A stretch of 29,320 nucleotides of DNA from a virus: IMG/VR virus record IMGVR_UViG_3300020205_000938, positions 1 to 29,320 of that record; one strand, written 5' to 3'. This document shows, in pieces, positions 2,632 to 27,643 of this stretch (position 1 is the stretch's first letter; each line of letters begins with the position of its first letter). Both the position numbers and the translations under genes were made by a program. The notes under the pieces are model-generated. The model saw only the letters and a program-made list of their open reading frames with translations. It made no database searches and was not told the DNA's origin.

Positions 2632-2661
2632 GAATGATGGCCCCAATGTGACGTATAGTGC

Positions 2662-11744: not shown

Positions 11745-12792
11745 AATCAAACTATCTGAAATAGAATTAGGAAACTTTGAATCAGGATACTGGAAAAAGG
11801 AAGACTTTTGCGTAGTTGATCAAGCATTGGCCAAGAAAGCCGCTCCTAAACAGATTACAAGATCTTTACCCAGTAGATTTTCTCTTGCGGAAATTGACTG
11901 CGTCTTTATCAGCTATGACGAACCCAATGCTGATCGCAACTGGGCAGACTTGTTAACCAAAGCACCTTGGGCTAAACGTGTACACGGAGTCAAAGGCAGC
12001 GATGCCGCACACAAGGCAGCGGCACAATTGAGCGATACTGAAAGATTCATTACCGTAGATGGTGACAACATTGTGAATCCAAAATTCTTTAACATAGCGT
12101 TAGACTTTAATGCCAAACCGGGTCTAAGAGATAAACAGCTTTCTTGGTGTGGGAAAAACTACATTAACAATCTAGTCTACGGCAACGGAGGACTTAAATG
12201 TTGGACTAAGGAATATGTTGAGTCAATGAGGACGCACGAAGCTTCGCTTGGAGAACAGGCGCAGGTAGACTTCTGTTGGAGTAATCGATATAAACAAATG
12301 GCTAACCTACATTCAGTAAGCTATGTGAATGCTAGTCCGTTACAGGCTTGGAGAGCAGGCTTCCGAGAAGGTGTCAAGATGACCCTAGACTATGGAAGCA
12401 AGCAAGAGCTGATTGATGCCAAACTCCAGATCGAGGGTAGAAACTTTAAAAGATTATTAGTATGGACCAGTGTAGGCAGTGATGTGGAGAATGGACTATG
12501 GGCGATCTACGGAGCAAGGTTGGGTGCCTATATGACTAACTGTACAGATTGGGATTGGACACAGGTAAAAGACTTTGACTATCTCAACGAATTGTTTAAC
12601 GAAAAATCTTCAGTAGATCTTATGAAGGAAATCAATAGTCTAGGAGATGAACTTAGTTTGCGATTTAATCTTCCTATGACCTTTCTAAATCCCGAACAGA
12701 GCAAGTTCTTTAAGGCCGCGTGGAGCAATCCTCCTAGATTTGATAGCATGACGGCAGAGTTAGATGTTAATTGGGATAGCATGGAACTATGA
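11722..12792 (+). CDS. Glycosyltransferase-like protein (pair 2, member A)
   Basis: The 356-residue protein carries CVFISYDEPNADRNW at about residues 60-74, then AKRVHGVKGSDAAHKAAA and FITVDGDNIVNP with a DxD-like D113-G-D115. These landmarks recur in the next gene and are typical of phage-encoded GT-A-like proteins whose substrates are unknown. A second half (residues 210-356) has no named domain: FKRLLVWTSVGSDVENGLW and a helical C-terminus. The start ATG 11722 overlaps the previous gene by 23 nt. Confidence 0.75.
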   Translation: MNYQEYFKIKLSEIELGNFESGYWKKEDFCVVDQALAKKAAPKQITRSLPSRFSLAEIDCVFISYDEPNADRNWADLLTKAPWAKRVHGVKGSDAAHKAAAQLSDTERFITVDGDNIVNPKFFNIALDFNAKPGLRDKQLSWCGKNYINNLVYGNGGLKCWTKEYVESMRTHEASLGEQAQVDFCWSNRYKQMANLHSVSYVNASPLQAWRAGFREGVKMTLDYGSKQELIDAKLQIEGRNFKRLLVWTSVGSDVENGLWAIYGARLGAYMTNCTDWDWTQVKDFDYLNELFNEKSSVDLMKEINSLGDELSLRFNLPMTFLNPEQSKFFKAAWSNPPRFDSMTAELDVNWDSMEL

Positions 12793-13664
12793 CGCCTATT
12801 TTTAACAAGGACCTGCCTGATGTGTTTGATCCTTTAGGTTATACTGTACAGCCTGAAGATATGGGATACGAACTAGTTTGGTATTTAGATCTTAAGTTCT
12901 TTCCGGACAAATGTCGAGTGTGGCACATTAATACAGTAGACGATCCTGTACGGATCAAACGTATGGGATTTGTTAAACCCAACTTGCCGGAAGACCTTGA
13001 CGTTGTGTTTATCAGCTATGATGAACCTAATGCACAATACAACTGGGAACACTTATTAAAGATATGCCCTAGAGCTAAACGAGTTATGGGAGTTAAAGGA
13101 ATATATCAAGCACATCAAGCGGCGTCTTATATCGCTAAGACTGATATGTTTTATGTTGTTGATGGAGACAGTTGGATAACTGATTTTAACTTTGATTTTA
13201 TTCCAAGCATATTTGATAGGAACTACATACACATTTTTAAATCAGTTAATCCTGTTAATGGACTAGAATATGGTAATGGTGCTGTTAAACTTATTCCTAG
13301 AAATGCATTTACCGAAGTAGAAGGAATCGATGTGACTACTTCATTAGGACAAATAAAATTAGTAGATCGAATAGTGTGCGAAACAAGATTTAACAACAGC
13401 GAATTTAATGCGTGGCGAAGTGCGTTTAGAGAATGTGTTAAGCTATCCAGTAGTGTCATTAACAATCAAGATACAGCAGAGACTTTGTTTAGATTAAAAG
13501 TTTGGTGCTCTAAAGGAATAGACAAACCCTTTGGTAACTATGTTGTTAGAGGAGCACAAGACGGAAAGGCATATGGAGATGCTAATAGAACTAACAACCA
13601 AGCATTAAAAATGATTAACGATTTTAAATGGTTATATGACAGATTCAAATTACATTATCAATAA
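12789..13664 (+). CDS. Glycosyltransferase-like protein (pair 2, member B)
   Basis: The 291-residue protein shares DVVFISYDEPNAQYNW, AKRVMGVKGIYQAHQAA and FYVVDGDSWITD (D125-G-D127) with its neighbour, as well as an NAWRSAFRECVKL segment matching QAWRAGFREGVKM. It is the shorter copy, with a different N-terminus (residues 1-65). It overlaps the previous stop by 4 nt (ATGA) and the next gene by 29 nt. It probably uses the same type of nucleotide donor, but neither donor nor acceptor can be read from sequence. Confidence 0.75.
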   Translation: MTPIFNKDLPDVFDPLGYTVQPEDMGYELVWYLDLKFFPDKCRVWHINTVDDPVRIKRMGFVKPNLPEDLDVVFISYDEPNAQYNWEHLLKICPRAKRVMGVKGIYQAHQAASYIAKTDMFYVVDGDSWITDFNFDFIPSIFDRNYIHIFKSVNPVNGLEYGNGAVKLIPRNAFTEVEGIDVTTSLGQIKLVDRIVCETRFNNSEFNAWRSAFRECVKLSSSVINNQDTAETLFRLKVWCSKGIDKPFGNYVVRGAQDGKAYGDANRTNNQALKMINDFKWLYDRFKLHYQ

Positions 13665-14196
13665 AGATTCATTTAGTAGTGGTCAAATAGGCAGTAAGAT
13701 CTGGCTATGCGAGGAACTAGAAAAGCTAGGTTGGTCTAGCAATTTAACCTATGTCTATGCAGGATGGTATGGCATTACGTCATTCCTGTTGTTGAGTAGA
13801 GGTAAGTTTCAAGTTGATCAAATACAGAGTTTTGATATTGATCCCAGCTGTGAATCAATTGCCGATATGATCAATGAAAACTGGGTCTGGCAAGAATGGA
13901 AGTTCAAAGCATATACCTTAGACTGTAACGGGCATGTAAGAGGGGGACCGGACCTAATCATTAATACCAGCACCGAACACTTTGATAGTCTGGATTGGTT
14001 TGACAATATTCCCAAAGGTACTAGGGTAATACTCCAGGGCAACAACATGCCGCACGACGATCATCACGTCCACTCTACATCGTTGGAAGAATTTAAAAAA
14101 CTGTATCCGTTAACAGAGTATGCCTATGAGGGCTCAAAAGAATTTGTTTATCCCAATTGGAGATTTACTAGATTCATGACAATAGGAATTGTTTAA
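13636..14196 (+). CDS. Class I SAM-dependent methyltransferase-like protein
   Basis: The 186-residue protein has TYVYAGWYGITSFLLLSR in the motif I position, IQSFDIDPSCESIADMI as the acidic loop of a Rossmann methyltransferase, then DLIINTSTEHFDSLDWFDNIPKGTRVILQGNNMP as motifs IV-V. The glycine loop is degenerate (AGWYG). It overlaps the upstream gene by 29 nt, so the true start may be later. It probably methylates a small molecule or a sugar in the glycan pathway, but the substrate is unknown. Confidence 0.6.
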   Translation: MTDSNYIINKDSFSSGQIGSKIWLCEELEKLGWSSNLTYVYAGWYGITSFLLLSRGKFQVDQIQSFDIDPSCESIADMINENWVWQEWKFKAYTLDCNGHVRGGPDLIINTSTEHFDSLDWFDNIPKGTRVILQGNNMPHDDHHVHSTSLEEFKKLYPLTEYAYEGSKEFVYPNWRFTRFMTIGIV

Positions 14197-14203
14197 AAAG
14201 ATT

Positions 14204-14977
14204 ATGATCAACCCAATAAATTACAAAGCATTTTACGATAGGTTTATGTCCACACAAAGAGGACAGCAGATAAAGGAAGAATACGACATAGTGTATTCAG
14301 AACCTAATCTATTAAAGTACTATCAGCGCACAGGCCACAATATTCTAGGAGTAGCCCAATGGGAGTTATTCGGAACCACACCTCGTGAAATTTCTGGTAA
14401 TCGAGACTTAACAAATTTACGTGTTGAACGTGAGGACAAGAGGCTAACAAGTTTTAGTATTACTCCATTTTATTACTTAGAATATCTTGAAGAATGTAAT
14501 CCAACAACGATAGCTGATGTAGGATGCGGATGGAATATCTTTAAAAAGTACATACCTTCTATTATAGGTTGGGATCCAAACGGTGAATGGGCCGATCATA
14601 GGCAAAAATACAGTGAAGAATTTAGAAAAGACTACAAAGAAAAGTTTGATTGTGCTTTTAGTATAAATGCAGTTTGGGCGTCAACGTGGGCTGATATTAA
14701 AACTAGTGTTGATGAATTTTTAACTATCGTTCGACCTGGTGGAAGAATTTTCTTATCATTCCCGGCAGGATGGTTATATCACAACACCTCGTATCAATGG
14801 TATCTCGATAACGGATTAACGCTCGGTAATCCTGATGAAATTTCAAAATGGGTATATAACGAAATATTATCTCTGGGACAAACAATACTGGTATTTGATA
14901 GTAATATTAGCCTAAACAATTCCTTTTTGTCTCACGACGGGGATCTAAGAATTGTCATCGAAAAGAGATATTATTAA
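14204..14977 (+). CDS. SAM-dependent methyltransferase
   Basis: The frame is open from TTG 14189 (262 residues) but I prefer ATG 14204 (257 residues). Neither start has a strong ribosome site. Motif I is clear: TIADVGCGWNIFKKYIPSIIGWDPNGEW, with DVGCG and an acidic loop, then FDCAFSINAVWAS and IVRPGGRIFLSFPAG at motifs IV-VI. This is a class I fold. It ends the operon, and its stop overlaps by 4 nt the stop of the converging gene at 14974. With the upstream methyltransferase it could finish sugar methylation. Confidence 0.8.
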   Translation: MINPINYKAFYDRFMSTQRGQQIKEEYDIVYSEPNLLKYYQRTGHNILGVAQWELFGTTPREISGNRDLTNLRVEREDKRLTSFSITPFYYLEYLEECNPTTIADVGCGWNIFKKYIPSIIGWDPNGEWADHRQKYSEEFRKDYKEKFDCAFSINAVWASTWADIKTSVDEFLTIVRPGGRIFLSFPAGWLYHNTSYQWYLDNGLTLGNPDEISKWVYNEILSLGQTILVFDSNISLNNSFLSHDGDLRIVIEKRYY

Positions 14978-15987: not shown

Positions 15988-17340
15988 ATGGAACAACAAA
16001 TTCAATTTTTTAAGTCTGTTAGAGATAGACTAAATGCGGTTAGCCCTAGTTTCTGTGCGATGAAATGGCTACATCAAACCCTATATCTACACACAGGAGA
16101 TAACCATAGTTGCTATCATCCAAAACCACATCATATTCAACTTGACGAAATAGCCGCCAACCCAAATGCGTTACATAATACCAAATGGAAAAAAGAACAG
16201 CGCAAGAAGATGCTAGAAGGCGAGCGGCCTAAAGAATGTTTCTACTGCTGGAACATTGAGGATTTACCAGGAGAACATGCTAGCGATAGAATATTACATA
16301 GCGGATCAACCTGGGCAGAACCTATGATCGAAGAGCTAGGCATGCGCCCATGGAGTGCTCCTATTAATCCAAAATACTTAGAAATTAGTTTTGGCAATAA
16401 TTGTAACTTCCGTTGCGGATACTGCGGCCCGCAGGCCAGTACCATGTGGATGGAAGAAGTAAAGAAGCACGGCGATTACGACATTACGCATCCGCAATAC
16501 AGCATTGACTTTTTAGAACACGGAACATACTACGGCCCTAAAGATGAAAATCCTTACATTGATGCGTTTTGGAAATGGTGGCCTGATCTACGTAAAGATC
16601 TACACACACTACGCATAACCGGTGGCGAACCGTTAATGAATCCAGCCGCAATGGAGTTCTTTGATCTACTAGATCGAGAACCTGCTCCGGAACTAGAAGT
16701 AAGTATTAATACCAACTTGGGCGTAAGTTTTGCTAGGATTGATCGAGTTGTAGAACAAGTAAAGAAATTACTTCAAGAAAAGAAGATCAAGAAGTTTAAT
16801 ACGTTTACTTCTATTGACTCATGGGGACCGCAAGCAGAGTATATGCGTACAGGACTCGATTGTGCCCATTGGGAACGCAACATGCGAGTGGTAGTCGAAG
16901 CAGGTAAACGTATACATTTTATGTGTACCTTTAATGTACTGTGTGTTACTAACTATAAGAAACTGTTAGAAAAAGTTATTGAGTGGCGTAAAGAGTACGG
17001 AGTTGAAGCATTCCATTTAGATATACCTGCCCTTAAGGATCCTCCACATTGGATGATTAATATTCTTACAGACGACTTCTTAGTCTATATGGATGATACA
17101 CTTAAATTCATGGAAGACAACAAGGAGTGGTTTGAGCTTTCAGAGATCGTAAAGTTTAGGCGAGTCACTGAGTTTATGAGAACTAATCCGGTTGATCCTA
17201 GCAAGATACACAGGGGCCGTAGAGACTTCTATGTGTTCTTTACAGAAAACGATCGCAGGCTAGGTACTAATCTACTAGAAGTGTTTCCAGAATACGCTGA
17301 CTTTTATCAGTTGTGTAAGGAAACTTACGAGAACTATTAG
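15988..17340 (+). CDS. Twitch-type radical SAM protein 1
   Basis: The 450-residue protein has the radical SAM cluster motif C139-NFR-C143-GY-C146, and a GGEPLMN motif (SAM-binding GGE) near residue 210. Its N-terminus carries a separate four-Cys set (C23, C42, C84, C87) placed like the auxiliary [4Fe-4S] twitch domain that precedes the radical SAM barrel in some peptide-modifying enzymes. Such enzymes usually act on peptide side chains. The next gene, a 42-residue peptide, follows after 8 nt with a strong ribosome site. A late octamer 4 nt before the ATG predicts leaderless transcription. Reaction and substrate are unknown. Confidence 0.88.
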   Translation: MEQQIQFFKSVRDRLNAVSPSFCAMKWLHQTLYLHTGDNHSCYHPKPHHIQLDEIAANPNALHNTKWKKEQRKKMLEGERPKECFYCWNIEDLPGEHASDRILHSGSTWAEPMIEELGMRPWSAPINPKYLEISFGNNCNFRCGYCGPQASTMWMEEVKKHGDYDITHPQYSIDFLEHGTYYGPKDENPYIDAFWKWWPDLRKDLHTLRITGGEPLMNPAAMEFFDLLDREPAPELEVSINTNLGVSFARIDRVVEQVKKLLQEKKIKKFNTFTSIDSWGPQAEYMRTGLDCAHWERNMRVVVEAGKRIHFMCTFNVLCVTNYKKLLEKVIEWRKEYGVEAFHLDIPALKDPPHWMINILTDDFLVYMDDTLKFMEDNKEWFELSEIVKFRRVTEFMRTNPVDPSKIHRGRRDFYVFFTENDRRLGTNLLEVFPEYADFYQLCKETYENY

Positions 17341-17348
17341 GAGGCGTT

Positions 17349-17477
17349 ATGAAGTTAATAGAGTGGTCAAATGATCAATACACTGTTGGATGGACATTAC
17401 GATACCGGCATTACATCTATCATTTTAGATATTTTAAAATACACAAATTTTGGGATATTGGGAGGCAATATCTATGA
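17349..17477 (+). CDS. 42-residue aromatic peptide gene
   Basis: ATG 17349 is preceded by a strong ribosome site AGGAGG at 5-nt spacing. The product starts MKLIEWSNDQYTVGW and is unusually rich in Tyr, Trp, Phe and His, with many basic residues. The stop overlaps the next start as ATGA. It is too short for a known fold and lacks a signal peptide. Its position between a radical SAM enzyme and a 2-oxoglutarate oxygenase is that of a modified-peptide precursor or a small regulator; neither is shown. Confidence 0.65.
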   Translation: MKLIEWSNDQYTVGWTLRYRHYIYHFRYFKIHKFWDIGRQYL

Positions 17478-18544
17478 AGGTTAGCAAGATACCCGGTCTA
17501 GGTCGATTTGGTATATTCATTGACGATGTAGACTTTAACAATATAACAGATGACCAATGGACCGAAATTGGCAACCTACATCTACAAAATTTAGTTACTA
17601 TCATTCGAGATTGTAATCTAACATGGGAAAAACAAACAGACTTTTGTAAGAAGTTTGGAGATACCCGATACGGCATACGTTATCTAATGCTTAAGAAGTA
17701 TCTTGGTAAATCATGGCCGGAACTTGTTCGTATGGCTTTACAAGATACTTCAGGTGCCATGGACGAGATTGATCGTATTAGGCTAAAAAGTGTAGCACGT
17801 ATGCAAGAACTTACCAAAGACGGAAAACATGTAATGCGTGTTACTGGTAAGAAAGACAAAGACGGCAATCCATTAGGCATGTTTGCCGAAGGCGAACTAT
17901 TATGGCACAGCAATGAAAGTGGCACATTAACATTTACTCCCGGAGTAGCTTTGTTGGGTGCTGAAAATATGATTGGGTCTAGTACAGGATTTATTACTAC
18001 ACCCGATTACTATGAAAATGTCAGCAATGCTTTTCGCAGTGAGCTTGATGAGATGATTCTTGTACATAGGTTTACTCCCGGACGTATCAATCCCGGACTA
18101 CGTATGGAACAGGATGAAGTGATGCACGCTAACATGTGTCCAGAAGATGACGTAGAGATTCCTATCGTTATGCGTAGCCCCGGTGGCATCGTCGGCCTAC
18201 ACTACAGTTCAAATACTATCTACAGCATCAAAGGTATGACCAAAGAAGAATCCGATGCTGTGTTTAAAGAAATAGATAAAGAACTATTTGTAGACAAGTA
18301 TATCTACGATCATTGGTATAAAAGTAACAACGACTTTTGTTTATTTGATAATAGCATCACATTACATAGAAGACTAGGCGACATTAAAGATAGATTGTGT
18401 TATCGTATTCAACATGACTACAGTAACTTACAAGAAGGATTCTGGCAACCTTATCTACAAGAAGAATTTGCGGAAAAATACAAAAAAGATATTAAGTACT
18501 ACGTTGACCTAGCAGGCATTAAAGATTTCAAATTACCAGCATGA
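17474..18544 (+). CDS. TauD/TfdA-like Fe(II)/2-oxoglutarate oxygenase
   Basis: The start is ATG 17474, 8 nt after a GGGAGG ribosome site; TTG 17450 is also in frame but lies inside the peptide gene. The 356-residue protein has the TauD layout: WHSNESGTLTFTPGVALLGAENMIGSSTGFI (first metal block, residues 144-174), IVGLHYSSNTIYSI, and FCLFDNSITLHRRLGD with distal His298 and a probable 2-oxoglutarate arginine R311. The first block reads H-S-N where the family has H-x-D, so one metal ligand is replaced. It would hydroxylate a substrate with O2, iron and 2-oxoglutarate; the substrate is unknown. Confidence 0.75.
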   Translation: MKVSKIPGLGRFGIFIDDVDFNNITDDQWTEIGNLHLQNLVTIIRDCNLTWEKQTDFCKKFGDTRYGIRYLMLKKYLGKSWPELVRMALQDTSGAMDEIDRIRLKSVARMQELTKDGKHVMRVTGKKDKDGNPLGMFAEGELLWHSNESGTLTFTPGVALLGAENMIGSSTGFITTPDYYENVSNAFRSELDEMILVHRFTPGRINPGLRMEQDEVMHANMCPEDDVEIPIVMRSPGGIVGLHYSSNTIYSIKGMTKEESDAVFKEIDKELFVDKYIYDHWYKSNNDFCLFDNSITLHRRLGDIKDRLCYRIQHDYSNLQEGFWQPYLQEEFAEKYKKDIKYYVDLAGIKDFKLPA

Positions 18545-19215
18545 AGTCTTTTAACATATTGTATGTTGGTCAACTAAGGTTTGTCGAATGTGCTCGATAT
18601 CATTTGTCAAAGATAAAAAATGCCAACTCAATTGACGCTGTGTTTTTTAACGATCTATCAAATACACAGTTTAAATATAGTGTTAATGATCTTACATTCA
18701 AAGAAGCACTTGAGTATTTTACAAATACTGTAAATCCAAATAGTTGTACCGTGGTCGATCCTTTAAAGTATAGTTGGCATTATCCTGCTTATCGACAATT
18801 ATTGTTAACACTAGAGTACATTGAAGAAACAGATGTTGTATTCTTAATGACTCCGGAGTTAGTGTTTAATCGATGGTCGTTTTTAAATTTTAAATTTATC
18901 AGTCAATTTGTTCCTCAAGATACTCCTAAGGTATTTGCTTGGTCTACTGAAAAGAATACTATACATAATCATTTTTTATATTTAAATCGAAAAGCAATAC
19001 AACGACTTAAACAAAAATGGAGAGCATCATCATTTCCGTTTTTTTTACATACAGAGGAATGCTGGTATAATATGATTAAAGAATGCGGAATTGATATTGT
19101 TCATACTAAAAACACTAGCATGTCTAAGTGTATAAAATTTAAACCTAACATGGACTTTACAAAGATACACGATTTTAAATATATAGAGAAACAAAGAAAA
19201 TTATGGGACAAATAA
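18541..19215 (+). CDS. Hypothetical protein in radical SAM cluster
   Basis: The 224-residue protein starts NILYVGQLRFVECARYHLSKIKN, a Rossmann-like beginning, followed by ETDVVFLMTPELVFNRW and a basic C-terminus. The overall look recalls divergent glycosyltransferases, but there is no clear DxD or catalytic motif, so I leave it unnamed. The start overlaps the TauD stop (ATGA) and the stop overlaps the following radical SAM start. It is AT-rich. Confidence 0.75.
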   Translation: MKSFNILYVGQLRFVECARYHLSKIKNANSIDAVFFNDLSNTQFKYSVNDLTFKEALEYFTNTVNPNSCTVVDPLKYSWHYPAYRQLLLTLEYIEETDVVFLMTPELVFNRWSFLNFKFISQFVPQDTPKVFAWSTEKNTIHNHFLYLNRKAIQRLKQKWRASSFPFFLHTEECWYNMIKECGIDIVHTKNTSMSKCIKFKPNMDFTKIHDFKYIEKQRKLWDK

Positions 19216-20417
19216 CTAATAAAATGAGCCAAACATGGTGTGTAAACGCATACCATTCTCTACAAGCCAGTAATAACGGAGAGACCCGAGCTTGCTGTAT
19301 GTACAGAAGGCAAGCGCCATTAAAAGAAAAACTAGGCGATTTGTCTATTTCAGATTGCTTCCAACAACCGGATTTGATACAGCTGAGAAAAGACATTGAA
19401 GATGGCGTAAGAAATCCGGGGTGTACAAGATGTTGGCAAGAAGAAGACGGAGGCAAGGAAAGTAAAAGAACACGAGATAACGAAAAGTATCATAACATGA
19501 TAGTTTCCGGAGGTGTTCCTTACAAAGGTATATCGTATTTAGAATTAAACTTAGGCAACGAATGTAATCTAAGATGTAGAACATGCGGACCTCATTCTAG
19601 CAGTCAATGGGTTAAAGAAGCCTATGACATACAATATTTCAAAGTAATTGATAAGAAAAGTTACGGTGAAGAAGTAAAACAATTTCATAAAACCTATGCC
19701 GAAGATAGTAGTTTTTGGCCCGACTTTGAAAAACACTTACCTACTATTAGACAGCTAGACTTTTACGGAGGTGAGCCATTCATGAGTAAAAAGATGTGGC
19801 ATGTCCTACGAGTTGCTGTAGAAAAGGGGTATGCTAAAGACATAGAATTAAATTATGCTACCAACGGATCTTTCTGGCCCGAAGAGGTTGAAATCTTTAA
19901 ACACTTTAGACGAGTTAGTGTTCAATTTAGTATAGATGGTATTGGTAAACAATTTGAATTTATGCGATACTTGTCTGACTGGAATGTTGTAACAGAAAAC
20001 ATGACCAGGGCCGAGGAGTTTCGAGACTCTAATCCTAATGTATTTTTAGGATGGTGTATTACTCTAAGTGCCCTTAATGTTTATCAGCTACCGGAGATAC
20101 TACTAGAGCACCATAGGAACTACAGTAGTTTTGGTGTATATCTGAACCTTGTACATTTTCCTAATCATTTCAATATATCTATAATGCCAGAGAATGTAAA
20201 GGTACAGGTAATTGAAAAAATTAACTCATTTCCAAGTCACTATCAAAGTTACTGGCATAAAATTCCAGGAATAATAGGATTCATTGAAGGTGGTGAATAT
20301 AACGAAACAGATTGGAATGCCTTGATTGACAGTATAAGAGCTAGTGATGTTTATAGAAATCAAGACTATGCGGAGATATTTCCAGAGTTTGCCAATATTA
20401 TAGGATATAAGAAATGA
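19203..20417 (+). CDS. Twitch-type radical SAM protein 2
   Basis: The 404-residue protein has the cluster motif C121-NLR-C125-RT-C128 (LGNECNLRCRTCGPHSS) and a FYGGEPFMS SAM motif. The N-terminus carries C13, C31-C32, C74 and C77 (NPGCTRCW), matching the N-terminal twitch set of protein 1, to which it is clearly related. ATG 19203 overlaps the upstream stop; ATG 19224 (MSQTWCV) is an alternative and resembles family starts better. It is tightly coupled to radical SAM protein 3 (ATGA at 20414). Likely a peptide or protein side-chain modifier. Confidence 0.88.
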   Translation: MGQITNKMSQTWCVNAYHSLQASNNGETRACCMYRRQAPLKEKLGDLSISDCFQQPDLIQLRKDIEDGVRNPGCTRCWQEEDGGKESKRTRDNEKYHNMIVSGGVPYKGISYLELNLGNECNLRCRTCGPHSSSQWVKEAYDIQYFKVIDKKSYGEEVKQFHKTYAEDSSFWPDFEKHLPTIRQLDFYGGEPFMSKKMWHVLRVAVEKGYAKDIELNYATNGSFWPEEVEIFKHFRRVSVQFSIDGIGKQFEFMRYLSDWNVVTENMTRAEEFRDSNPNVFLGWCITLSALNVYQLPEILLEHHRNYSSFGVYLNLVHFPNHFNISIMPENVKVQVIEKINSFPSHYQSYWHKIPGIIGFIEGGEYNETDWNALIDSIRASDVYRNQDYAEIFPEFANIIGYKK

Positions 20418-21634
20418 TTGACTTTTGGAATGTGAGCGATCTAAAACAATTGCATATTGAATTGACCAATGCCTGTAATGCCGCATGTCCCATGTGTGTA
20501 AGGTTTTATAAAAACTCTCCATTGGTCAGACCAGATTTAGAAATTGATCAGATAACTTTGGAAAAGTTTCAAAATTATTTTCCTCCTGAAATTTTAAATC
20601 CCCTAGTTAAGATACTGTTCTGCGGAGTACACGGAGATCCTTGTATGGCCAGCGATCTCGTAGAAATCTGCGAGTATATACAATCAAATACTTCAGATAA
20701 GTTTGTTCTTCAAATACATACCAATGGAGGAATGCGTAATCCCGAATGGTGGACAACGCTAGGCAAAGTATTTGCCAATCGAAACGAACTTAGTATGGAC
20801 TGCTGGAGAGTCATATTCAGTGTAGATGGGTTAGAAGATACTAATCATCTATACAGGAGAAATGTTGACTGGAATAAACTAACGGCCAACATCAAAGCGT
20901 TTATTGGCGCAGGGGGCAACGCTGCCTGGGAATATTTAATCTTTGAACATAACGAACATCAGATAGATGAGGCTCGTAAGATGTCAGAGGAGATGGGTTT
21001 CAAAATGTTTATACCCAAAGCCGCATTAGGTGTTGATGATGGAAGAAGTTTAAAACCTTTACCAGCATTAACTAGAGAAGGTAAATTAGATTACTTCATT
21101 GAAGCTCCTAACAATCCAGAACTTCGAAACTTAAAAAATCCTGTAGGGTTTACACCTGCTAAGTTTAGAGAATTTAAGATAGAAGATTATCGAAATCTTA
21201 AACAAAGCAAATCAGACGACGACTACCAACAACGAGTAGAAAATGTCTATGACAAAATTGCCGTTAACAATTTTAATCAGCTTGACACTAATCAAATAAA
21301 GTGTAAAGCTCTAAAAGAGTGGGGTGGAAAAGAAGTATTCATTGACAACCACGGTAGAGTGTTACCTTGCTGTTATGTAGGTACGCACATAAATGGTGTT
21401 TATGAAGATGTACAATCTTTACAGATGCACAAACATATGAATGATTATGGATGGGACCATTTTGATCTAAACAAGCATAGCTTTAAAGAAATACTAGAAG
21501 CTGGACATCTAAACAGAGTATTTGCCGACTCTTGGGAAAAGAAAAGAGTCAAAGACGGTAAACTGGCCTATTGCTCATCTATCTGTGGCGAGGAAAGCAG
21601 GATTGATAGAGTTTATTTTAATAGACTTACTTAA
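20414..21634 (+). CDS. SPASM-type radical SAM protein 3
   Basis: The 406-residue enzyme has C21-NAA-C25-PM-C28 near its start (ELTNACNAACPMCVR) and a C-terminal Cys-rich region: KCKALKEW, EVFIDNHGRVLPCCYVG and LAYCSSICGEES, typical of a SPASM-like auxiliary cluster domain. SPASM-domain enzymes commonly modify ribosomal peptides or proteins. The stop overlaps by 4 nt the stop of the converging AspH-like gene. It is a paralog of protein 5 (25890-26975): both share the N-terminal layout, TNGGMRNPEWW and EVFIDNHG-type C-termini. Confidence 0.9.
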   Translation: MIDFWNVSDLKQLHIELTNACNAACPMCVRFYKNSPLVRPDLEIDQITLEKFQNYFPPEILNPLVKILFCGVHGDPCMASDLVEICEYIQSNTSDKFVLQIHTNGGMRNPEWWTTLGKVFANRNELSMDCWRVIFSVDGLEDTNHLYRRNVDWNKLTANIKAFIGAGGNAAWEYLIFEHNEHQIDEARKMSEEMGFKMFIPKAALGVDDGRSLKPLPALTREGKLDYFIEAPNNPELRNLKNPVGFTPAKFREFKIEDYRNLKQSKSDDDYQQRVENVYDKIAVNNFNQLDTNQIKCKALKEWGGKEVFIDNHGRVLPCCYVGTHINGVYEDVQSLQMHKHMNDYGWDHFDLNKHSFKEILEAGHLNRVFADSWEKKRVKDGKLAYCSSICGEESRIDRVYFNRLT

Positions 21635-22152
21635 ACCATATATGGGCTAAGTGTGTCAGCCCATATATCAGCATCAAACTCTAATACAAATATAACACGT
21701 TGTTGATCTGTATTATTAAATCCAAAGTGTGTTAGAGCACCGTTAAAAACTAAAGGCTTACCTTCTGTCCATCTATGTACTGTGCCTTCTATATCAAACC
21801 CGGTATCGCCTTCTGGAATTATGATAGGTAGTTGGAATACAAGACGTTTACCCCAGTTAACATGATTGTGTACAGGACTGGCTGTATGCGGCTCTAGACT
21901 TAACCAACCCGAAGCACGATGGCAAGGACCATTGCGAATCATTTCAGTAGTTTTAGGACACCATTTTTGATAGACTTTCCATGCTTTGTAATCCCACCAA
22001 AGCGGCATTCCTCTCCAAGATTCGGAGACTTCGCCTGTCCAGGTGGGAATGGCCACAGTCTTTTTATCTTTAGAAGCAAGCCACTCTGCTCGAATAGTTT
22101 CAAAGTTATCGAGAAGTGTCTTCACGAATTGTTCTTGTTCAGTCTTGTTCAT
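21631..22152 (-). CDS. Aspartyl/asparaginyl beta-hydroxylase-like oxygenase
   Basis: The 173-residue protein has the AspH-type core: GWLSLEPHTASPVHNH, NWGKRLVFQLPIIIPEGD, RWTEGKPLVFNGALTHFGFNNTDQQRVIFVLEFD. Metal ligands would be H95 or H97 and H142, with R152 for 2-oxoglutarate. The family uses Fe(II) and 2-oxoglutarate to hydroxylate Asp/Asn residues or other targets. The start ATG 22152 lies 5 nt after a GTTAAATA octamer that is back-to-back with the octamer of the next gene. Its target here could be phage proteins (inference). Confidence 0.85.
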   Translation of the reverse strand: MNKTEQEQFVKTLLDNFETIRAEWLASKDKKTVAIPTWTGEVSESWRGMPLWWDYKAWKVYQKWCPKTTEMIRNGPCHRASGWLSLEPHTASPVHNHVNWGKRLVFQLPIIIPEGDTGFDIEGTVHRWTEGKPLVFNGALTHFGFNNTDQQRVIFVLEFDADIWADTLSPYMV

Positions 22153-22157
22153 AACGC

Positions 22158-22165
22158 TATTTAAC
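22158..22165 (-). promoter_or_regulatory. Late promoter-like octamer GTTAAATA
   Basis: The minus-strand octamer ends 5 nt before ATG 22152 and sits 3 bp from the plus-strand octamer, forming a divergent promoter pair. Confidence 0.6.
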
Positions 22166-22168
22166 GCC

Positions 22169-22176
22169 TATAAATA
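22169..22176 (+). promoter_or_regulatory. Late promoter octamer TATAAATA
   Basis: This is an exact T4 late consensus ending 5 nt before ATG 22182. No ribosome-binding site lies between. Confidence 0.75.
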
Positions 22177-22181
22177 TTTCC

Positions 22182-22808
22182 ATGAGTTTTTTCGATCCCA
22201 ACAACTTTTATCACAAGATCTATTGGGAGACTTGCCCAGAATTTGAAGAAATTCGAGAGCTATGCCTATCCGAAACAGACAACTGGCTACGTGACATATA
22301 CCTTCCGGAAAATTTAATTATAGAAAAGCATCGTGGATACTCTGTAGTATTCCACAAGGCTTCTGGTGAGCCTGCAGGCATGGCCGGCTTGTTCAATGAT
22401 GGTAGATATCCTAGCAACATAGCTAGACATCTACATAGAGAATATCTATTCCCTAAGTTCCGTGTTAATCATAGTGTCTCTGTGCTAACACAAGGCCTTA
22501 AGATGTATCACGAACATATTATCAAGCCTTTAGATCAACATCATAAATTTGATGCTTACTTTGTAGCCATGCAGACACGCGATAAGAAGTCTACTAAAGG
22601 CTATTGGAACAGGGTATTTTCTCGGGCCATGCTAGATGCTGTACCAGGATTCCGCAAAGGTCCAGGACTTATACAAACTTGTCCTTGGCCCGTACAAAAA
22701 TGCTGGCAAAACTTTGTCTACTTTGAACACGTAGAAGGCGCATTTGAAAGATGGGCTCCACAGATAATCAGCGAAAACGTATGGAAGCTGTTAGACCCGG
22801 GTGTTTGA
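22182..22808 (+). CDS. Hypothetical protein
   Basis: The 208-residue protein has CPEFEEIRELCLSETDNW, then EKHRGYSVVFHKASGEPAGMAGLF, a strand pattern reminiscent of GNAT acetyltransferases, and a C-terminus rich in Trp (CPWPVQKCWQNFVYFEHVE). The GNAT similarity is weak and I do not claim a function. It is AT-rich, convergent with radical SAM protein 4, overlapping it by 18 nt, and is preceded by an exact late octamer. Confidence 0.75.
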   Translation: MSFFDPNNFYHKIYWETCPEFEEIRELCLSETDNWLRDIYLPENLIIEKHRGYSVVFHKASGEPAGMAGLFNDGRYPSNIARHLHREYLFPKFRVNHSVSVLTQGLKMYHEHIIKPLDQHHKFDAYFVAMQTRDKKSTKGYWNRVFSRAMLDAVPGFRKGPGLIQTCPWPVQKCWQNFVYFEHVEGAFERWAPQIISENVWKLLDPGV

Positions 22809-24395
22809 CTTTTTAATTTTTATAGGAGCCGATGTTCCTGAACCATCTCGCCAATTTAGTTTATTTAAAATATACTCTTTGGTAACGACATCATGTTTGG
22901 CATCGGCTATTAATCCTGTAGATCTATAGAACTCGCCTTGAATCTCTTTATTATTTTTATTATTAAAAAAATCTCGTGGTCTGTGTGTGGCCAAAAACCA
23001 TTGCCCAATACTCCAGATATCCGGAGTATTATAATCTTGATAGGTATGTAACCAATTTCCTACTTCTACAGTAGCAGACAGTCGACTCCAATGATCGTTT
23101 TCCCAATTCATACCAGAATCTTTTGAAGATAGATCGGCAGTTAGATATATAGAATCTTGAAGCTTTTTAGTCGATCCATTGTCTTTGATATACTGACTCA
23201 CTTGATCAAAATAATTGGTATCTAGCTTTCGATATCCATATTTGGACCAATGTTCGGTTAGTAGTGACGGAGTTTGTGTTTCTCCTTCTGCCGGAATAAA
23301 CAAAGGATAGGTGACAGAACTATCTCCTTTCCAATTCTTAAGGATCCACATTTTAGTTTTTTGCCAAGTTTCCGGAGTTTCTTTTGGAAGCCCTACTATC
23401 AAACTCATAGTAGCTCGATATAGAGAGTGAGATTTAAAGTACTGTCTAGCAGCCAAGAGTCCCGGTAGTAGGCGGTCTGGATGCATGCCCTTACCTATCA
23501 GCTTTAGCGTTTCGGGGTTGGTCGATTCTATTCCGTAATGATGACCAACAAATCCCATCTGTATCATAATATCCCAATCTTGAGGACGAGATACTAAAAG
23601 GTCTGCTCGAGCAAAACCATTAAGGGTGGGGCGAAAGTTTAATTGATCCACAGCATTCGAGAACTTGATCAATTTTTCCGTGTAGTCGTTGACAGTTTCA
23701 TCTGCTAGCATATAGTTAGTCACACCCCAATTGTCATAGTTAAGCTGTAGTTCATCTCTAAAATTATCAGCAGATCGTGTGTGATCTTCTTTAACACCTA
23801 ATATTGGAAAATTACAAAAACTACATTTAAACCTACATCCTCTACCTAACTCAGTTACCAGTGTTTCGTTAGCTTTGATAAAGTCCCGATCTTCGTAGAC
23901 TATACTGAGATCTGCCATTGGATAACTGGGATAGTCCGAGTTGCCATAGATAGCTTTCTTACCATTAGGCCCCAATCGGTACTTCAAGGGTTCAGTTAGG
24001 GTACCTGCCAGATGTTTCAGTAGGGCTTCTACGGCTCTCTCACCAAATCCATATACGTACCAATCGGCTCCACGATACATGTGACTTTGAGCACCACCTG
24101 CTATGATGGTTATATGGGGCCAAGTGGTCTTGACCCATGCTAGGAATTCTGCTATCACAGGATTCCATACAGGAAATGTGGCACCAAAGCCTACCCACTG
24201 AGTCTTTGAGTTAACCCTGCTCTGGGCATACTCTTTGAGTTCTTCTAAGGTCCAACTTTCCAGGAAGTCCAATATTTCAATGTCCCAACCCTGCCGTCTA
24301 AGATACGTGGCTAACCTATAGGCACCAGCGGCTCTATGATGTTCAAGATGGTTTTTATTATTACGGGGCATACCCGTGAATATCAATGCGTGCAA
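22791..24395 (-). CDS. Radical SAM protein 4 with N-terminal Rossmann-like domain
   Basis: The 534-residue protein has a Rossmann-like N-terminal half (residues 1-130) resembling the cobalamin-binding domain of B12-type radical SAM enzymes, but the cobalamin motif DxHxxG is absent. The radical SAM motif C187-RFK-C191-SF-C194 (LGRGCRFKCSFCNFP) is intact. The C-terminal half has Trp-rich segments (ENDHWSRLSATVEVGNW). An AAGGAG ribosome site precedes ATG 24395 and a late octamer CATAAATA lies 19 nt upstream. The reaction is unknown; methyl transfer or ring chemistry are possible for this architecture. Confidence 0.88.
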   Translation of the reverse strand: MHALIFTGMPRNNKNHLEHHRAAGAYRLATYLRRQGWDIEILDFLESWTLEELKEYAQSRVNSKTQWVGFGATFPVWNPVIAEFLAWVKTTWPHITIIAGGAQSHMYRGADWYVYGFGERAVEALLKHLAGTLTEPLKYRLGPNGKKAIYGNSDYPSYPMADLSIVYEDRDFIKANETLVTELGRGCRFKCSFCNFPILGVKEDHTRSADNFRDELQLNYDNWGVTNYMLADETVNDYTEKLIKFSNAVDQLNFRPTLNGFARADLLVSRPQDWDIMIQMGFVGHHYGIESTNPETLKLIGKGMHPDRLLPGLLAARQYFKSHSLYRATMSLIVGLPKETPETWQKTKMWILKNWKGDSSVTYPLFIPAEGETQTPSLLTEHWSKYGYRKLDTNYFDQVSQYIKDNGSTKKLQDSIYLTADLSSKDSGMNWENDHWSRLSATVEVGNWLHTYQDYNTPDIWSIGQWFLATHRPRDFFNNKNNKEIQGEFYRSTGLIADAKHDVVTKEYILNKLNWRDGSGTSAPIKIKKSNTRV

Positions 24396-24414
24396 AGTAT
24401 CTCCTTAGTGAAGA

Positions 24415-24422
24415 TATTTATG
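24415..24422 (-). promoter_or_regulatory. Late promoter octamer CATAAATA
   Basis: Seven of eight bases match the late consensus. It ends 19 nt before ATG 24395, with an AAGGAG site between, so this late gene has a conventional leader. Confidence 0.65.
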
Positions 24423-24429
24423 GGAGTGG

Positions 24430-24648
24430 CTACTTGCTGTCGTAGTCTTTGACTGCGCCGCCGTAGTGTACTGACTTGGCTTTCTTACCCTTGACGTAAT
24501 TACCGTGGCCATCTGTGTGGCCTTTGCCCTTGCTTTGATGGGGACGTAGCCCCTGTGACACACATGAGCTGTGATCACTGCGTCCAAGACGCTTGGGGCT
24601 ACGGCAGATCTTTGGGTCTGTTTTTTCTAGTAATTCTTGTATACGCAT
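24430..24648 (-). CDS. Small basic protein
   Basis: The 72-residue protein begins MRIQELLEKTDPKICRSPKRLGRSD and ends with a Gly/Lys/His-rich tail (GHGNYVKGKKAKSVHYGGAV). Its high positive charge suggests nucleic-acid or virion binding. I do not recognise a named family. The start ATG 24648 is 5 nt downstream of an AATAAATA octamer and has no ribosome-binding site. It follows the membrane protein gene of the lysis cassette on the same strand. Confidence 0.7.
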   Translation of the reverse strand: MRIQELLEKTDPKICRSPKRLGRSDHSSCVSQGLRPHQSKGKGHTDGHGNYVKGKKAKSVHYGGAVKDYDSK

Positions 24649-24653
24649 TACTT

Positions 24654-24661
24654 TATTTATT
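24654..24661 (-). promoter_or_regulatory. Late promoter-like octamer AATAAATA
   Basis: Seven of eight bases match; it ends 5 nt before ATG 24648 and overlaps the stop codon of the membrane protein gene at 24657. Confidence 0.6.
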
Positions 24662-24983
24662 TGAATAGAATCAAACTCATAATAACTGTCTGTGCGGCAA
24701 AGCCAATACAGATAGTGGCAATGTACAGGAAGTTCTTTTCAATCAAGGCCTTGAAGAACAGGGTGATCAGGGCTGACCAAACAAACACCATCAAGTCCAC
24801 TGGGGGTAGTTTGTCCGATTGCGCCATGAGCACGGCTATCAGGGTGGGTACGCTACTGAGGTGTAGCAGTACAATGGTAATCCAACCCAGGGTATGGCTT
24901 GACACACGCCCCAGATGATCACGGAGGAAGTACCAAATCCAACGGGGCATGGCCGCTAGGGCTGTTAAAATTTCTCTACGCAT
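24657..24983 (-). CDS. Three-TM membrane protein, holin candidate
   Basis: The 108-residue protein has three probable membrane spans: residues 34-55, 61-81 and 85-107, with a basic N-terminal segment. It follows the SleB-type hydrolase by 8 bp on the same strand. Its size, span number and place fit a holin, the membrane protein that opens the inner membrane to an endolysin. Holins share little sequence, so the call rests on topology and neighbour only. Confidence 0.6.
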   Translation of the reverse strand: MRREILTALAAMPRWIWYFLRDHLGRVSSHTLGWITIVLLHLSSVPTLIAVLMAQSDKLPPVDLMVFVWSALITLFFKALIEKNFLYIATICIGFAAQTVIMSLILFK

Positions 24984-24991
24984 GTCTGTCC

Positions 24992-25570
24992 TTACTTGTA
25001 AAAGATGTGGCGTCCGATGTGGGCGATCCGTTCACGCTTCCATCCGGGGTTGATGTAATCGCCATGAAAGTACATGGCATCCTTCAAGCTGGGCAAGCGA
25101 AAGCCTTCCAGCAGAACCTTTTTGGCCACGGCCATTGATTCTTCATAGACAGCCTTGTTCATGGGCCGTACTCCTGTGTCGCGGTCGCAAGCCCATGAGA
25201 ACTGGCATACGACCCGTTCGTATACTATGTTCTTTTGGTAAATGGTCTTGCACACATCTTCGGGGAACTGCCCGCTCTGTGTACGATTCATAGTGACCTG
25301 TGCGACAGCGACCTTGCCTTCAAAAGGTTCACCTCCGGCTTCGTGGTATATATTTTTAGCCAAACACTGTAGTTGTCGATCACGCACAGCGGCTGTGATG
25401 GCCGACGCTTCTACAATTTCTGTCTGGGCTAACTTTTGGGACACAGCCCATTTTAGCAAGGATCCGGCACAAGTCAATGCCGAGATCATGAGAACGATCA
25501 AAAAGAACCTGCTGAAGATAGCAGTTAGTTCTAGATCACGCTCTACCTTACCTAGTGTAATCTCAGTCAT
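24992..25570 (-). CDS. SleB-type cell wall hydrolase (endolysin candidate)
   Basis: The 192-residue protein has an N-terminal membrane anchor or signal-anchor (about residues 20-41: SRFFLIVLMISALTCAGSLL) followed by the SleB/Hydrolase_2 core: LAKNIYHEAGGEPFEGKVAVAQVTMNR, with catalytic-type glutamates E77 and E81, and AMYFHGDYINPGW. SleB enzymes cut peptidoglycan glycan strands. The signal-anchor suggests export through the host Sec system and membrane attachment, as in SAR endolysins (inference). A perfect ribosome site AAGGAGGT precedes ATG 25570. A sigma-70 promoter lies at 25684-25712. Confidence 0.88.
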   Translation of the reverse strand: MTEITLGKVERDLELTAIFSRFFLIVLMISALTCAGSLLKWAVSQKLAQTEIVEASAITAAVRDRQLQCLAKNIYHEAGGEPFEGKVAVAQVTMNRTQSGQFPEDVCKTIYQKNIVYERVVCQFSWACDRDTGVRPMNKAVYEESMAVAKKVLLEGFRLPSLKDAMYFHGDYINPGWKRERIAHIGRHIFYK

Positions 25571-25683
25571 AAAGACCTCCTTTTTCTAGTTTAAGTTCGA
25601 GTGGACATAATAGTTATGCCTATAAAGATAAAAACAGGCACGAAACGGCACAGTTTTTACCAGTTTTAGCAATAACTACGTAT

Positions 25684-25712
25684 ATAATAGCATTTTTTCT
25701 CAGCCCTGTCAA
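25684..25712 (-). promoter_or_regulatory. Sigma-70-type promoter for the lysis genes
   Basis: On the minus strand TTGACA (25712-25707) is perfect and TATTAT (25689-25684) matches 5 of 6, spaced 17 bp. Transcription would start near 25677, giving a leader of about 107 nt before SleB. A host-polymerase promoter for a lysis gene is unlike late control elsewhere here. Confidence 0.8.
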
Positions 25713-25718
25713 CCAGCC

Positions 25719-25726
25719 CATAAATA
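25719..25726 (+). promoter_or_regulatory. Late promoter octamer CATAAATA
   Basis: Seven of eight bases match the late consensus; it ends 4 nt before ATG 25731 and lies back-to-back with the sigma-70 promoter on the other strand. Confidence 0.65.
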
Positions 25727-25730
25727 CTCG

Positions 25731-25889
25731 ATGCTACTCAACGAACGATACCTAAGACTCAAAGAAGATCTACTGGAGATGGAATTGGCCTACAAGCACT
25801 CGCCTTCAAACGATCTACTCAACGCAATATTTGAACTACAGCTGGAGATCCAACGAGTCGAAGGTTTATTATCAAACCAGAACCAGTGA
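25731..25889 (+). CDS. 52-residue coiled-coil-like protein
   Basis: The ATG at 25731 opens a frame of 52 codons, MLLNERYLRLKEDLLEMEL, ending in LLSNQNQ. Leu, Glu and Lys repeat at heptad-like spacing, so a coiled coil is likely. It ends exactly at the stop of the converging radical SAM gene. A late octamer sits 4 nt upstream and there is no ribosome-binding site. Function unknown. Confidence 0.65.
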   Translation: MLLNERYLRLKEDLLEMELAYKHSPSNDLLNAIFELQLEIQRVEGLLSNQNQ

Positions 25890-26975
25890 TCAGCTGGCCG
25901 CCAGACTGGTGCGTTCCACAAACATTTCTTCGGGCCTGCTTATGGGTGTGTTGACTCCACAATGTCCCGCACAGGTGGTCAGCTGACCCTGCTGCCAAAA
26001 GCCATCCCATATGGTTTGGTAAGCTGGACTCTCAATGATGTCCTTTATGGAGCGATGGTGTGCGTTCAAGGCCTGCTCACCGCCCAGCGCCGCCATCAAG
26101 GCTGCATGCTCCCCTAACATGTGTTCCTGTACTGGAGCAAATTCCGGATGTAGCAGGGGGCTATCGGGCACGATGCCCAAAAAACAGCAGGGGTATACCT
26201 GCCCATGTGCGTCAATGTAGACTTCTCGTGAAGCCCGGGCAGTACAGGCTATCTCCGTGCTCTTGACCACCTGTTGATAGCTTTTTAACGCTTGTCGATC
26301 AAAAAAGCGAATGGCCGTGTGCCTGCTGGGTTCTAAAGTGGCCTGTGTATGACCCGCACGATCCTTGACGGGCCACTCTAGATCCAACCAAAAGCGGCCG
26401 CTGTCCTTCATGGTAAAGGCCTCAAAGCCCGTTTGGCCAGCCAACTCACGTGCCCTGTCCACTTGATGTTCATTGTGCCGGAATCGAATAAAGGCCCATT
26501 CGGCACGACCCCCGGCCTCAATGAATGTCTGTGCGTTGGCCACGACACGATCAAAATCAGTGCCCACCCTGTAGACGGCATGTGTGTCAGCCAAGCCATC
26601 GATGCCAAAAATCACCCGATGATTTGGGGGCAAGGCCCGGGCCAACTGGCGCCACCATTCAGGTGATCGCAAGCTGCCGTTGGTATAGATACAGGTGCGG
26701 ACCCGTGGATTGACCTCGCGACTGTACTCAATCATGGGAATCAAATGACCATTCAGCAGAGGATCCCCATAATTCCCACAGAAGTAATAGTGCTGGATCT
26801 GACTCAAAACTTCTGGCGAAATGATCTGTTTAAACTGATCCAATGTCCAATCAGCGAGCTTGAGCCTGGGATTGACACTACCCCCAGGGCCAGTACGGGC
26901 GCATTGTGGACAGCTGGCTTGACAGCGATTGGTAATTTCTAGGTGTATCTGCCCTAGTTGATTGAATCTGAACAT
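25890..26975 (-). CDS. SPASM-type radical SAM protein 5
   Basis: The 361-residue protein has the motif C18-QAS-C22-PQ-C25 (EITNRCQASCPQCAR) and a C-terminal Cys set: IACTARASREVYIDAHGQVYPCCFLG and TTCAGHCG, as in SPASM-domain enzymes. It is a paralog of radical SAM protein 3 but is much richer in G and C, with many CGG/GCC/GGC codons, so the two copies have different histories. It lies 98 bp downstream of the prolyl-hydroxylase-like gene on the same strand. Likely a peptide- or protein-modifying enzyme; substrate unknown. Confidence 0.9.
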   Translation of the reverse strand: MFRFNQLGQIHLEITNRCQASCPQCARTGPGGSVNPRLKLADWTLDQFKQIISPEVLSQIQHYYFCGNYGDPLLNGHLIPMIEYSREVNPRVRTCIYTNGSLRSPEWWRQLARALPPNHRVIFGIDGLADTHAVYRVGTDFDRVVANAQTFIEAGGRAEWAFIRFRHNEHQVDRARELAGQTGFEAFTMKDSGRFWLDLEWPVKDRAGHTQATLEPSRHTAIRFFDRQALKSYQQVVKSTEIACTARASREVYIDAHGQVYPCCFLGIVPDSPLLHPEFAPVQEHMLGEHAALMAALGGEQALNAHHRSIKDIIESPAYQTIWDGFWQQGQLTTCAGHCGVNTPISRPEEMFVERTSLAAS

Positions 26976-26991
26976 GCGTTAATTATCCATA

Positions 26992-27006
26992 GCCCAGTGA
27001 GTGGGC
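26992..27006. repeat. Short hairpin in the leader of radical SAM protein 5
   Basis: GCCCA (26992-26996) and TGGGC (27002-27006) form a 5-bp stem with a 5-nt loop, 17 nt upstream of the ATG at 26975. It lacks a T-tract, so it is not a terminator; it may affect mRNA folding. Confidence 0.45.
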
Positions 27007-27072
27007 GAACCCTCAGCGAAAATTTTTACAGAGTGTATAACTGCTTTTGATTGCTAGTCACCCCATGTGCAC

Positions 27073-27102
27073 ATTATACATAACGCAACCACCCTGTTAC
27101 AA
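27073..27102 (-). promoter_or_regulatory. Sigma-70-like promoter candidate upstream of radical SAM protein 5
   Basis: On the minus strand TTGTAA (27102-27097, 4 of 6) and TATAAT (27078-27073, 6 of 6) are spaced 18 bp. It overlaps the end of the upstream gene. The weak -35 lowers confidence. Confidence 0.4.
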
Positions 27103-27643
27103 CCATTTTTTCGCTCGTTTGTGATATCTGCCCTCGGTGTGTGAACGTCCAATCCGCGGGCCATATCAAAGTCAAACCTCGCTCAGCTTTTACCAATAAG
27201 TTCTGATGTAGGAACTGAGTACCGCCATCTGCTAGGTCATTTAAGTAAGTCATAAAGACCAAATGACGAGCTGAATCATGTCCTTTTGATGCACGTTCAC
27301 AATGCCATACTTTATAACCACCACCCACAGGATAGTGTTGACACAGTACAGGATACTCTAGATCAAAAGCTGAATAACGATTTGAATAGGGATATAACGC
27401 TATATAGTGATCAAGCACAGATTGAAGATGCTGTTTATACTGAGCATGTAGATCAACACGGACATCCAAACGACTGTCCCATCCATGTTTAACAGCAGTA
27501 TTGACATGACCCTTACTGCTGACAGCGGCGCTACGATCCAGACTAGTCTCAGTATAGTCAAGTAAACTATCGATTAGACTGTGATCATCTGAGTACCATC
27601 CTGCTATGAATGGTGTAGTGGTGTTTAGGTCATGTGCTCGCAT
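27074..27643 (-). CDS. Prolyl-4-hydroxylase-like Fe(II)/2-oxoglutarate oxygenase
   Basis: The 189-residue protein has the double-stranded beta-helix core of prolyl-4-hydroxylases: YKVWHCERAS, HLVFMTYLNDLADGGTQFL, GLTLIWPADWTFTHRG and EKMVVTGWLRY. The metal set is H114-x-E116 with H169, and K179 is the 2-oxoglutarate anchor; Glu replaces the usual Asp in HxD. Known family members hydroxylate proline or lysine in collagen-like and other proteins. The collagen-like fibre at 1-2631 is therefore a possible substrate (inference). A sigma-70-like promoter at 27651-27678 would start transcription at or next to the ATG. Confidence 0.85.
   Translation of the reverse strand: MRAHDLNTTTPFIAGWYSDDHSLIDSLLDYTETSLDRSAAVSSKGHVNTAVKHGWDSRLDVRVDLHAQYKQHLQSVLDHYIALYPYSNRYSAFDLEYPVLCQHYPVGGGYKVWHCERASKGHDSARHLVFMTYLNDLADGGTQFLHQNLLVKAERGLTLIWPADWTFTHRGQISQTSEKMVVTGWLRYV

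Follow-up and report, generated by a model that had tools for sequence, protein, structure and literature searches.

An ordered module of tail-fibre, transferase and radical SAM genes in T4-like phages and its possible part in virion decoration

Several radical S-adenosylmethionine (rSAM) enzymes in one phage genome are not without precedent. The T4-like environmental genome TARA_ERS488813_N000010 codes for 12 rSAM genes along with an A-type iron-sulfur (Fe-S) carrier, and its authors connect the genes for Fe-S assembly with Fe-S enzymes that viruses encode (PMC5332604, 2017). In the pelagimyophages, a hypervariable, tail-fibre-adjacent host recognition cluster includes GT8 transferases that were read as modifiers of the host O-chain; the same study mentions in passing that two related phages of this group have different rSAM cassettes and names AspH as one of their core genes (PMC7029224, 2020). 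Here we describe an island of glycosyltransferase-like and rSAM genes in the IMG/VR record IMGVR_UViG_3300020205_000938, the whole 29,320 bases of which we call the window, together with its counterparts in related viral contigs. The window shares with TARA_ERS488813_N000010 the T4-like affinity, the A-type Fe-S carrier and the multiple rSAMs, whereas the accessible account of that genome is without array order, a link to transferases and tail fibres, a late promoter or a function, and here a fixed order is seen across hundreds of loci. Like the pelagimyophage cluster, the module lies beside the tail fibres of a T4-like phage and includes GT8 genes; it differs in possessing FISY and vir7871, two families without a match in the phage isolates searched. 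A preliminary description of the window had regarded such an enzyme cluster as undescribed. Multi-rSAM T4-like genomes and pelagiphage rSAM cassettes are in fact already on record; it is for the ordered tail-fibre/GT8/rSAM module, and for its function, that we found no description in the open PMC literature, a body of work outside which subscription papers and most preprints lie.

We tentatively read the island, at a little under an even chance, as representing a conserved module that is transcribed late and decorates virion proteins of the tail-fibre region or the glycans they carry. The first support comes from gene order. Relatives were supplied by family-alignment scans of IMG/VR with FISY, SPASM-type rSAM and N-twitch rSAM alignments, loci being drawn from the matches listed; alignments were required, as a single-sequence scan with one window rSAM (rSAM B) yielded one relative only. 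The scans confirmed at least 593 viral FISY loci, at least 568 SPASM-type rSAMs and at least 490 N-twitch rSAMs. Among 203 distinct loci, three to nine rSAMs per 12 kb are usual, with five or six in 77 of them and seven to nine in 26, and long contigs (76-363 kb) show up to 20 rSAM matches each. Gene order is conserved over these contigs: the chain runs from tail fibre through vir7871, u9858, two GT8 genes, u198 or f17 and FISY to the rSAM array, followed by variable genes, and the successive adjacent pairs from tail fibre by way of u198 to rSAM were counted 70, 90, 105, 115, 85, 83 and 85 times. The association also holds from either end. When FISY was the only query, 40 of the 70 fetched loci had rSAMs (27 of them three or more), and FISY is present in 62/68 N-twitch and 38/60 SPASM loci. 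One relative, L006, reproduces the window order from vir7871 through u9858, two GT8-like genes, FISY, orthologues of the window's rSAMs A, B and C, and FISY again to a methyltransferase-like gene, packing about ten rSAMs into 14 kb. Other neighbours of the arrays include GDSL/DUF6071 hydrolases, carbamoyltransferases, NDP-sugar (nucleoside diphosphate sugar) enzymes and the Fe-S factors SufE/NifU.

In the window, the island begins at about 7300, well before the interval 15988-27643 in which it was first delimited; the genes noted there are present, and vir7871 paralogues and GT8-like genes lie upstream of them. A T4-type late-promoter-like ATAAATA (7299..7305, plus strand) precedes a plus-strand operon whose first gene codes for an uncharacterised protein (7327..7869). 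Two paralogues of the vir7871 family follow (7871..8866 and 8882..9847, both plus), presumed virion proteins whose relatives are driven by late promoters, and then a u9858 family gene (9858..10184, plus) placed between vir7871 and the GT8-like genes. The first of the latter encodes a glycogenin-type glycosyltransferase (10181..10984, plus) and the second a phrog_1903 member (10977..11744, plus). These proteins have few Pfam matches, and their GT8 assignment rests on the match of the family profile to glycogenin (E 5.5e-7), which bears out the earlier mention of glycosyltransferases nearby. Next come two copies of FISY (11722..12792 and 12789..13664, both plus), a putative GT-A transferase with a conserved DGD motif. 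The Pfam matches of FISY proteins are to GT2 only, all of them sub-threshold, and we accordingly speak of a putative transferase and not of a proven glycosyltransferase. In some loci FISY lies within proteins of more than 1,200 amino acids (L121:16373-20443, L133:2729-6397). The run closes with two methyltransferase-like proteins on the plus strand, one recognised by a sequence motif, without a Pfam match, and kept beside FISY/rSAM genes (13636..14196), the other a sub-threshold Methyltransf_11 (14189..14977).

The second support is the arrangement of promoters and gene boundaries. From u9858 onward, the median spacing in relatives is -4 to -25 bases, such that neighbours overlap slightly. Within about 100 bases 5' of the start, the motif NATAAATA is present in 40% of tail-fibre genes, 26% of vir7871 genes and 11% of u9858 genes, against an expected 0.8%, and mostly at about -30; 5' of the GT8, u198, f17 and FISY starts it was found in 0 of 624. 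Because of this motif placement and the gene overlap, we infer that the transferases, and the rSAMs where contiguous, are probably read from late tail-fibre transcripts. The window itself has seven ATAAATA sites, six of which stand 6-22 bases 5' of a same-strand gene (p ~1e-9), among them those before the first gene of the glycosyltransferase operon (7299), rSAM D (24415) and an Fe-S carrier (6943). The motifs at 6943, 22169, 24654 and perhaps 15976 stop only 5-6 bases short of the start given for the gene, which would fit either leaderless transcripts for some late genes or a true start further downstream.

The five rSAM and three 2-oxoglutarate (2OG) oxygenase-type open reading frames (ORFs) first noted in the window are real and lie where they had been placed, by the ORF list and by Pfam and NCBIfam profiles. 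All five rSAMs carry the CxxxCxxC cluster, their cysteine maps agreeing with the profiles, and four exceed the Pfam Radical_SAM cut-off of 29.5 bits (A 32.5, B 29.9, D 57.9 and E 37.3). Of the 25 ORFs with 150 or more amino acids, 6 contain the motif by itself, against 0.025 expected after shuffling. The sixth is evidently an HNH nuclease at 3044 (CVTACAPC, as read from the sequence), so the motif is insufficient alone and it is the profiles that settle the five. The two N-terminal twitch proteins announced in the preliminary description are rSAM A (15988..17340, plus; 306 bits; Cys 23/42/84/87, CNFRCGYC at 139 and GGEP) and rSAM B (19203..20417, plus; 316 bits), both well over the curated cut-off of 170 bits for the NCBIfam family N_Twi_rSAM NF033640 and with all of its cysteines present. 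To our knowledge, this family has neither a known function nor a solved structure. Orthologues of rSAM A are syntenic in L006 and 82% identical in L090; an uncharacterised protein between A and B (18541..19215, plus) is retained in related contigs. In rSAM B, all seven cluster cysteines (four N-terminal and those of CX3CX2C) are invariant among 70 relatives. The two C-terminal SPASM-like proteins are rSAM C (20414..21634, plus; Cys 297/319/320/387/391) and rSAM E (25890..26975, minus; SPASM 24.4 bits, over the cut-off of 21.5). Of these, C remains just under both cut-offs (PF04055 24.2 bits; SPASM 19.0) and has the same cysteine pattern as E and a PF04055 E-value of 4e-7 in its own record. rSAM D (22791..24395, minus), with ATAAATA 20 nt upstream, joins the radical SAM domain to a B12-binding domain that scores 30.3 bits, slightly below the cut-off of 32.1; against the PhpK-type B12 P-methyltransferase model TIGR04479 it reaches 71.5 bits of the 600 required. 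Compared with their closest relatives, the window rSAMs show proportions of synonymous (pS 0.71-0.85) and nonsynonymous differences (pN 0.11-0.46) that indicate purifying selection.

The nearest relative of 743 of 756 array rSAMs lies in another contig and not in the own array, which rules out recent tandem duplication; best identity is about 29% within an array and about 75% outside it. A decaying or junk array is likewise ruled out, as 830 of 842 members retain an intact CX3CX2C, the exceptions being mostly short or cut by a contig end. By their sequence relationships, the array members are old, distinct, non-redundant and conserved orthologues. Twitch and SPASM architectures, together with matches in profile and in fold to CteB, SuiB, SkfB, anSME and EpeE, would suit enzymes that modify a small phage-encoded peptide, secreted or acting on competitors, in the manner of a ribosomally synthesised and post-translationally modified peptide (RiPP). 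We consider this highly improbable: across 461 same-strand rSAM pairs in 141 arrays the median gap is -8 bases and only three gaps reach 60 bases, which rules out a precursor gene between rSAMs. No RiPP transporter or protease occurs among the 25 Pfam families listed in the tally, which was not a search aimed at them, and the known peptide maturase equivalogs (TIGR04317, SkfB and anSME types) score at best 49 bits against a cut-off of 380. A conserved protein of about 74 residues, p74, stands beside rSAMs in 21 loci (e.g. L156:9784-10008), often after a methyltransferase-like gene; it is conserved over its whole length, unlike a leader-core precursor.

On the favoured reading, the module would belong to T4-like phages, jumbo phages included. 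Its two GT8-like and one or two FISY putative transferases would attach sugars, and the diverse rSAM set would then perform radical C-H chemistry, be it epimerisation, cross-linking, dehydrogenation or methylation. The likeliest acceptors would be proteins of the same late transcript (tail fibres, vir7871 and u9858) or glycans on them, the outcome being a chemically diversified receptor-binding end of the virion. Phage-encoded Fe-S carriers may supply the clusters, and the 2OG oxygenases and B12 rSAM of the window could be variable additions. It is the late-promoter and operon evidence that tilts the target towards virion components. The more general proposition, that T4-like and jumbo phages use 5-20 non-redundant, late-made rSAMs to modify their own virion proteins by radical-dependent chemistry, seems to us possible and rather doubtful. 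Glycans on capsid and tail-tube subunits are described for mycobacteriophage virions (Freeman 2023, cited in PMC12619734). They offer a precedent for how such a system could work, in phages that are unrelated to those considered here. We know of no rSAM array associated with mycobacteriophage virion glycosylation, nor, in any virus, of particle diversification by radical enzymes. Were the virion the target, phages would offer radical chemistry new to post-translational modification and, besides sequence variation, would have a second way of diversifying receptor binding.

A different outlet for the same enzymes is the host surface, where transferases and rSAMs might build or alter an O-antigen or lipopolysaccharide-like glycan of the infected cell and so block co-infecting phages. 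This is the main rival and on balance unlikely in our estimate. It finds an echo in the arrays, which hold NDP-sugar epimerases, a UDP-sugar dehydrogenase, an aminotransferase, a CMP-transferase, a phosphomannomutase and carbamoyltransferases. The sugar-acid decarboxylase BlsE is the nearest match of the SPASM rSAM C/E profile, the fold matches of rSAM B include DesII, and the AspH-type protein is weakly LpxO-like; the glycosyltransferases of the pelagimyophage host-recognition islands have been given this same interpretation in print (PMC7029224). The contiguity of the chain with tail-fibre genes and its late-type promoters speak for a virion target instead, exclusion genes being expected early, and the window is without a recognised sugar-nucleotide synthesis gene. 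If the host surface is nonetheless the target, the rSAM arrays would amount to a large and so far unexploited stock of rSAMs that edit glycans. In both cases, they point to concrete candidate substrates in the adjoining tail fibre, vir7871 and u9858.

Several observations weigh against decoration of the virion. The nearby sugar-nucleotide enzymes and carbamoyltransferases suit the synthesis of a host-surface glycan equally well, and the candidate substrates range over virion proteins, host peptides and glycans. The presumed virion role of vir7871 meets a fold search that returned no PDB match, its sole likeness being to three viral models without a named function. In the window, rSAMs A-C form a separate plus-strand run from 15988, behind a minus-strand gene, and 5' of this position there is only a degenerate late motif, CTTAAATA, spotted by eye. 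The AlphaFold model of rSAM B (predicted local distance difference test, pLDDT, 94.8) has a best query-normalised TM-score of 0.39 in the PDB, and its nearest solved folds are peptide-, sugar- and nucleotide-acting rSAMs alike, so that a fold search aimed at the choice between peptide and sugar gave no decision. BlsE, DesII, anSME, CteB and SuiB have the core fold and the SPASM/twitch cluster logic in common with the window rSAMs, but the family models of BlsE, DesII and the SPASM peptide maturases all stay below cut-off for them. Since the substrates of these enzymes span peptides to sugars, no reaction is assignable. Finally, N-twitch arrays of Bdellovibrionota (L249) occur without the phage transferases, which are thus not obligatory partners. 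L249, a bacterial contig from a metagenome-assembled genome (MAG), has seven N-twitch rSAMs in one stretch flanked by mfd-like and ATP synthase genes, and further N-twitch genes lie in Bdellovibrionota-type chromosomes (L252, L254, L257-L261).

These stand-alone arrays also lend some colour to an auxiliary metabolic role, in which the rSAMs would provide the infected host with a small metabolite or cofactor and the tail-fibre location would merely reflect a hypervariable island. The presence of a B12 rSAM and, among the variable island genes, of a carbamoyltransferase, a QueC-like ATPase and, by sequence, an amidinotransferase-like protein is in keeping with it. We regard such a role as improbable, given the order fixed over many contigs and the overlap with GT8/FISY genes, and no known pathway profile exceeds its cut-off.

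The 2OG-type proteins stand apart from this module. The preliminary description had counted all three as part of the system; of the 203 relatives, very few have the TauD family, 2 have AspH and none has the prolyl-hydroxylase family, and in view of this rarity the 2OG genes are rejected as conserved core and the window's three oxygenases lie outside it. Other Asp_Arg_Hydrox genes do occur in or near arrays, and 16/37 long contigs contain such genes. The TauD/TfdA-like protein (17474..18544, plus; PF02668 56.5 bits, cut-off 27) belongs to the cyanophage family phrog_24590 (E 9e-106). The start first given, 17474, is indeed an ATG; the ORF itself opens at a TTG at 17450. It is without the HxD...H iron ligands, having LWHSN aligned to the LWHSD of TfdA, and the homologues in cyanophages and pelagiphages keep this HxN in place of HxD, which may mean changed chemistry or lost oxygenase activity. 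The Asp/Asn beta-hydroxylase-type oxygenase (21631..22152, minus; PF05118 Asp_Arg_Hydrox 66.7 bits, cut-off 22.6) matches AspH structures (E 3e-7) and scores 45.5 against the 500 required for the LpxO lipid A hydroxylase NF033391. The third is a prolyl-hydroxylase-like 2OG-Fe(II) oxygenase with HxE (27074..27643, minus; PF13640 2OG-FeII_Oxy_3 32.1 bits, cut-off 27; phrog_61 E 4e-28). The same window also codes for a collagen-like tail fibre (1..2646, minus; PF01391 103 bits; tail-fibre PHROGs), in which 44 of the 92 Y positions of the collagen triplets are threonine. Threonine at the collagen Y position is a type of O-glycosylation site. The stretches of relatives that were fetched showed neither the collagen-like fibre nor the prolyl-hydroxylase-like gene.

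The record is that of a phage, T4-like as judged from its gene families, on account of the collagen-like tail fibre, a phrog_114 ATP-dependent ligase, an endolysin-type hydrolase and two A-type Fe-S carriers. The tail-fibre PHROGs and the phage-type ligase rule out a cellular origin, and the T4 major capsid family (gp23) is found in 19/37 long relatives. The first carrier (6614..6937, minus; PF01521 60.5 bits) is IscA/SufA-like, with TATAAATA immediately 5'; the second (6964..7290, plus) matches phrog_17776 (E 2e-34). Every one of the 12 records that reach 198 kb encodes an A-type carrier. TATAAATA also stands immediately 5' of an uncharacterised gene (22182..22808, plus) conserved in the relative L169.

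Because FISY and vir7871 have no match among 50,697 phage isolate records, the lineage is essentially uncultured as far as that collection goes; rSAM matches in cultured phages are distant ones, in Vibrio phages, a marine single-cell virus and a pelagiphage. The cultured Pelagibacter phage Mosig (L009) has a related tail-fibre island with TauD, two Asp_Arg_Hydrox and MoaA-like rSAMs, along with nitroreductases, a carbamoyltransferase and aminotransferases, and might serve as an experimental system. Three contigs binned in MAGs of Gammaproteobacteria, Neomarinimicrobiota and Flavobacteriales (L250, L253 and L248, respectively) resemble phage contigs with the same module, possibly as hints to hosts or as binning errors. 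A tRNA-Met gene lies at 28985-29062, close to the end of the window.

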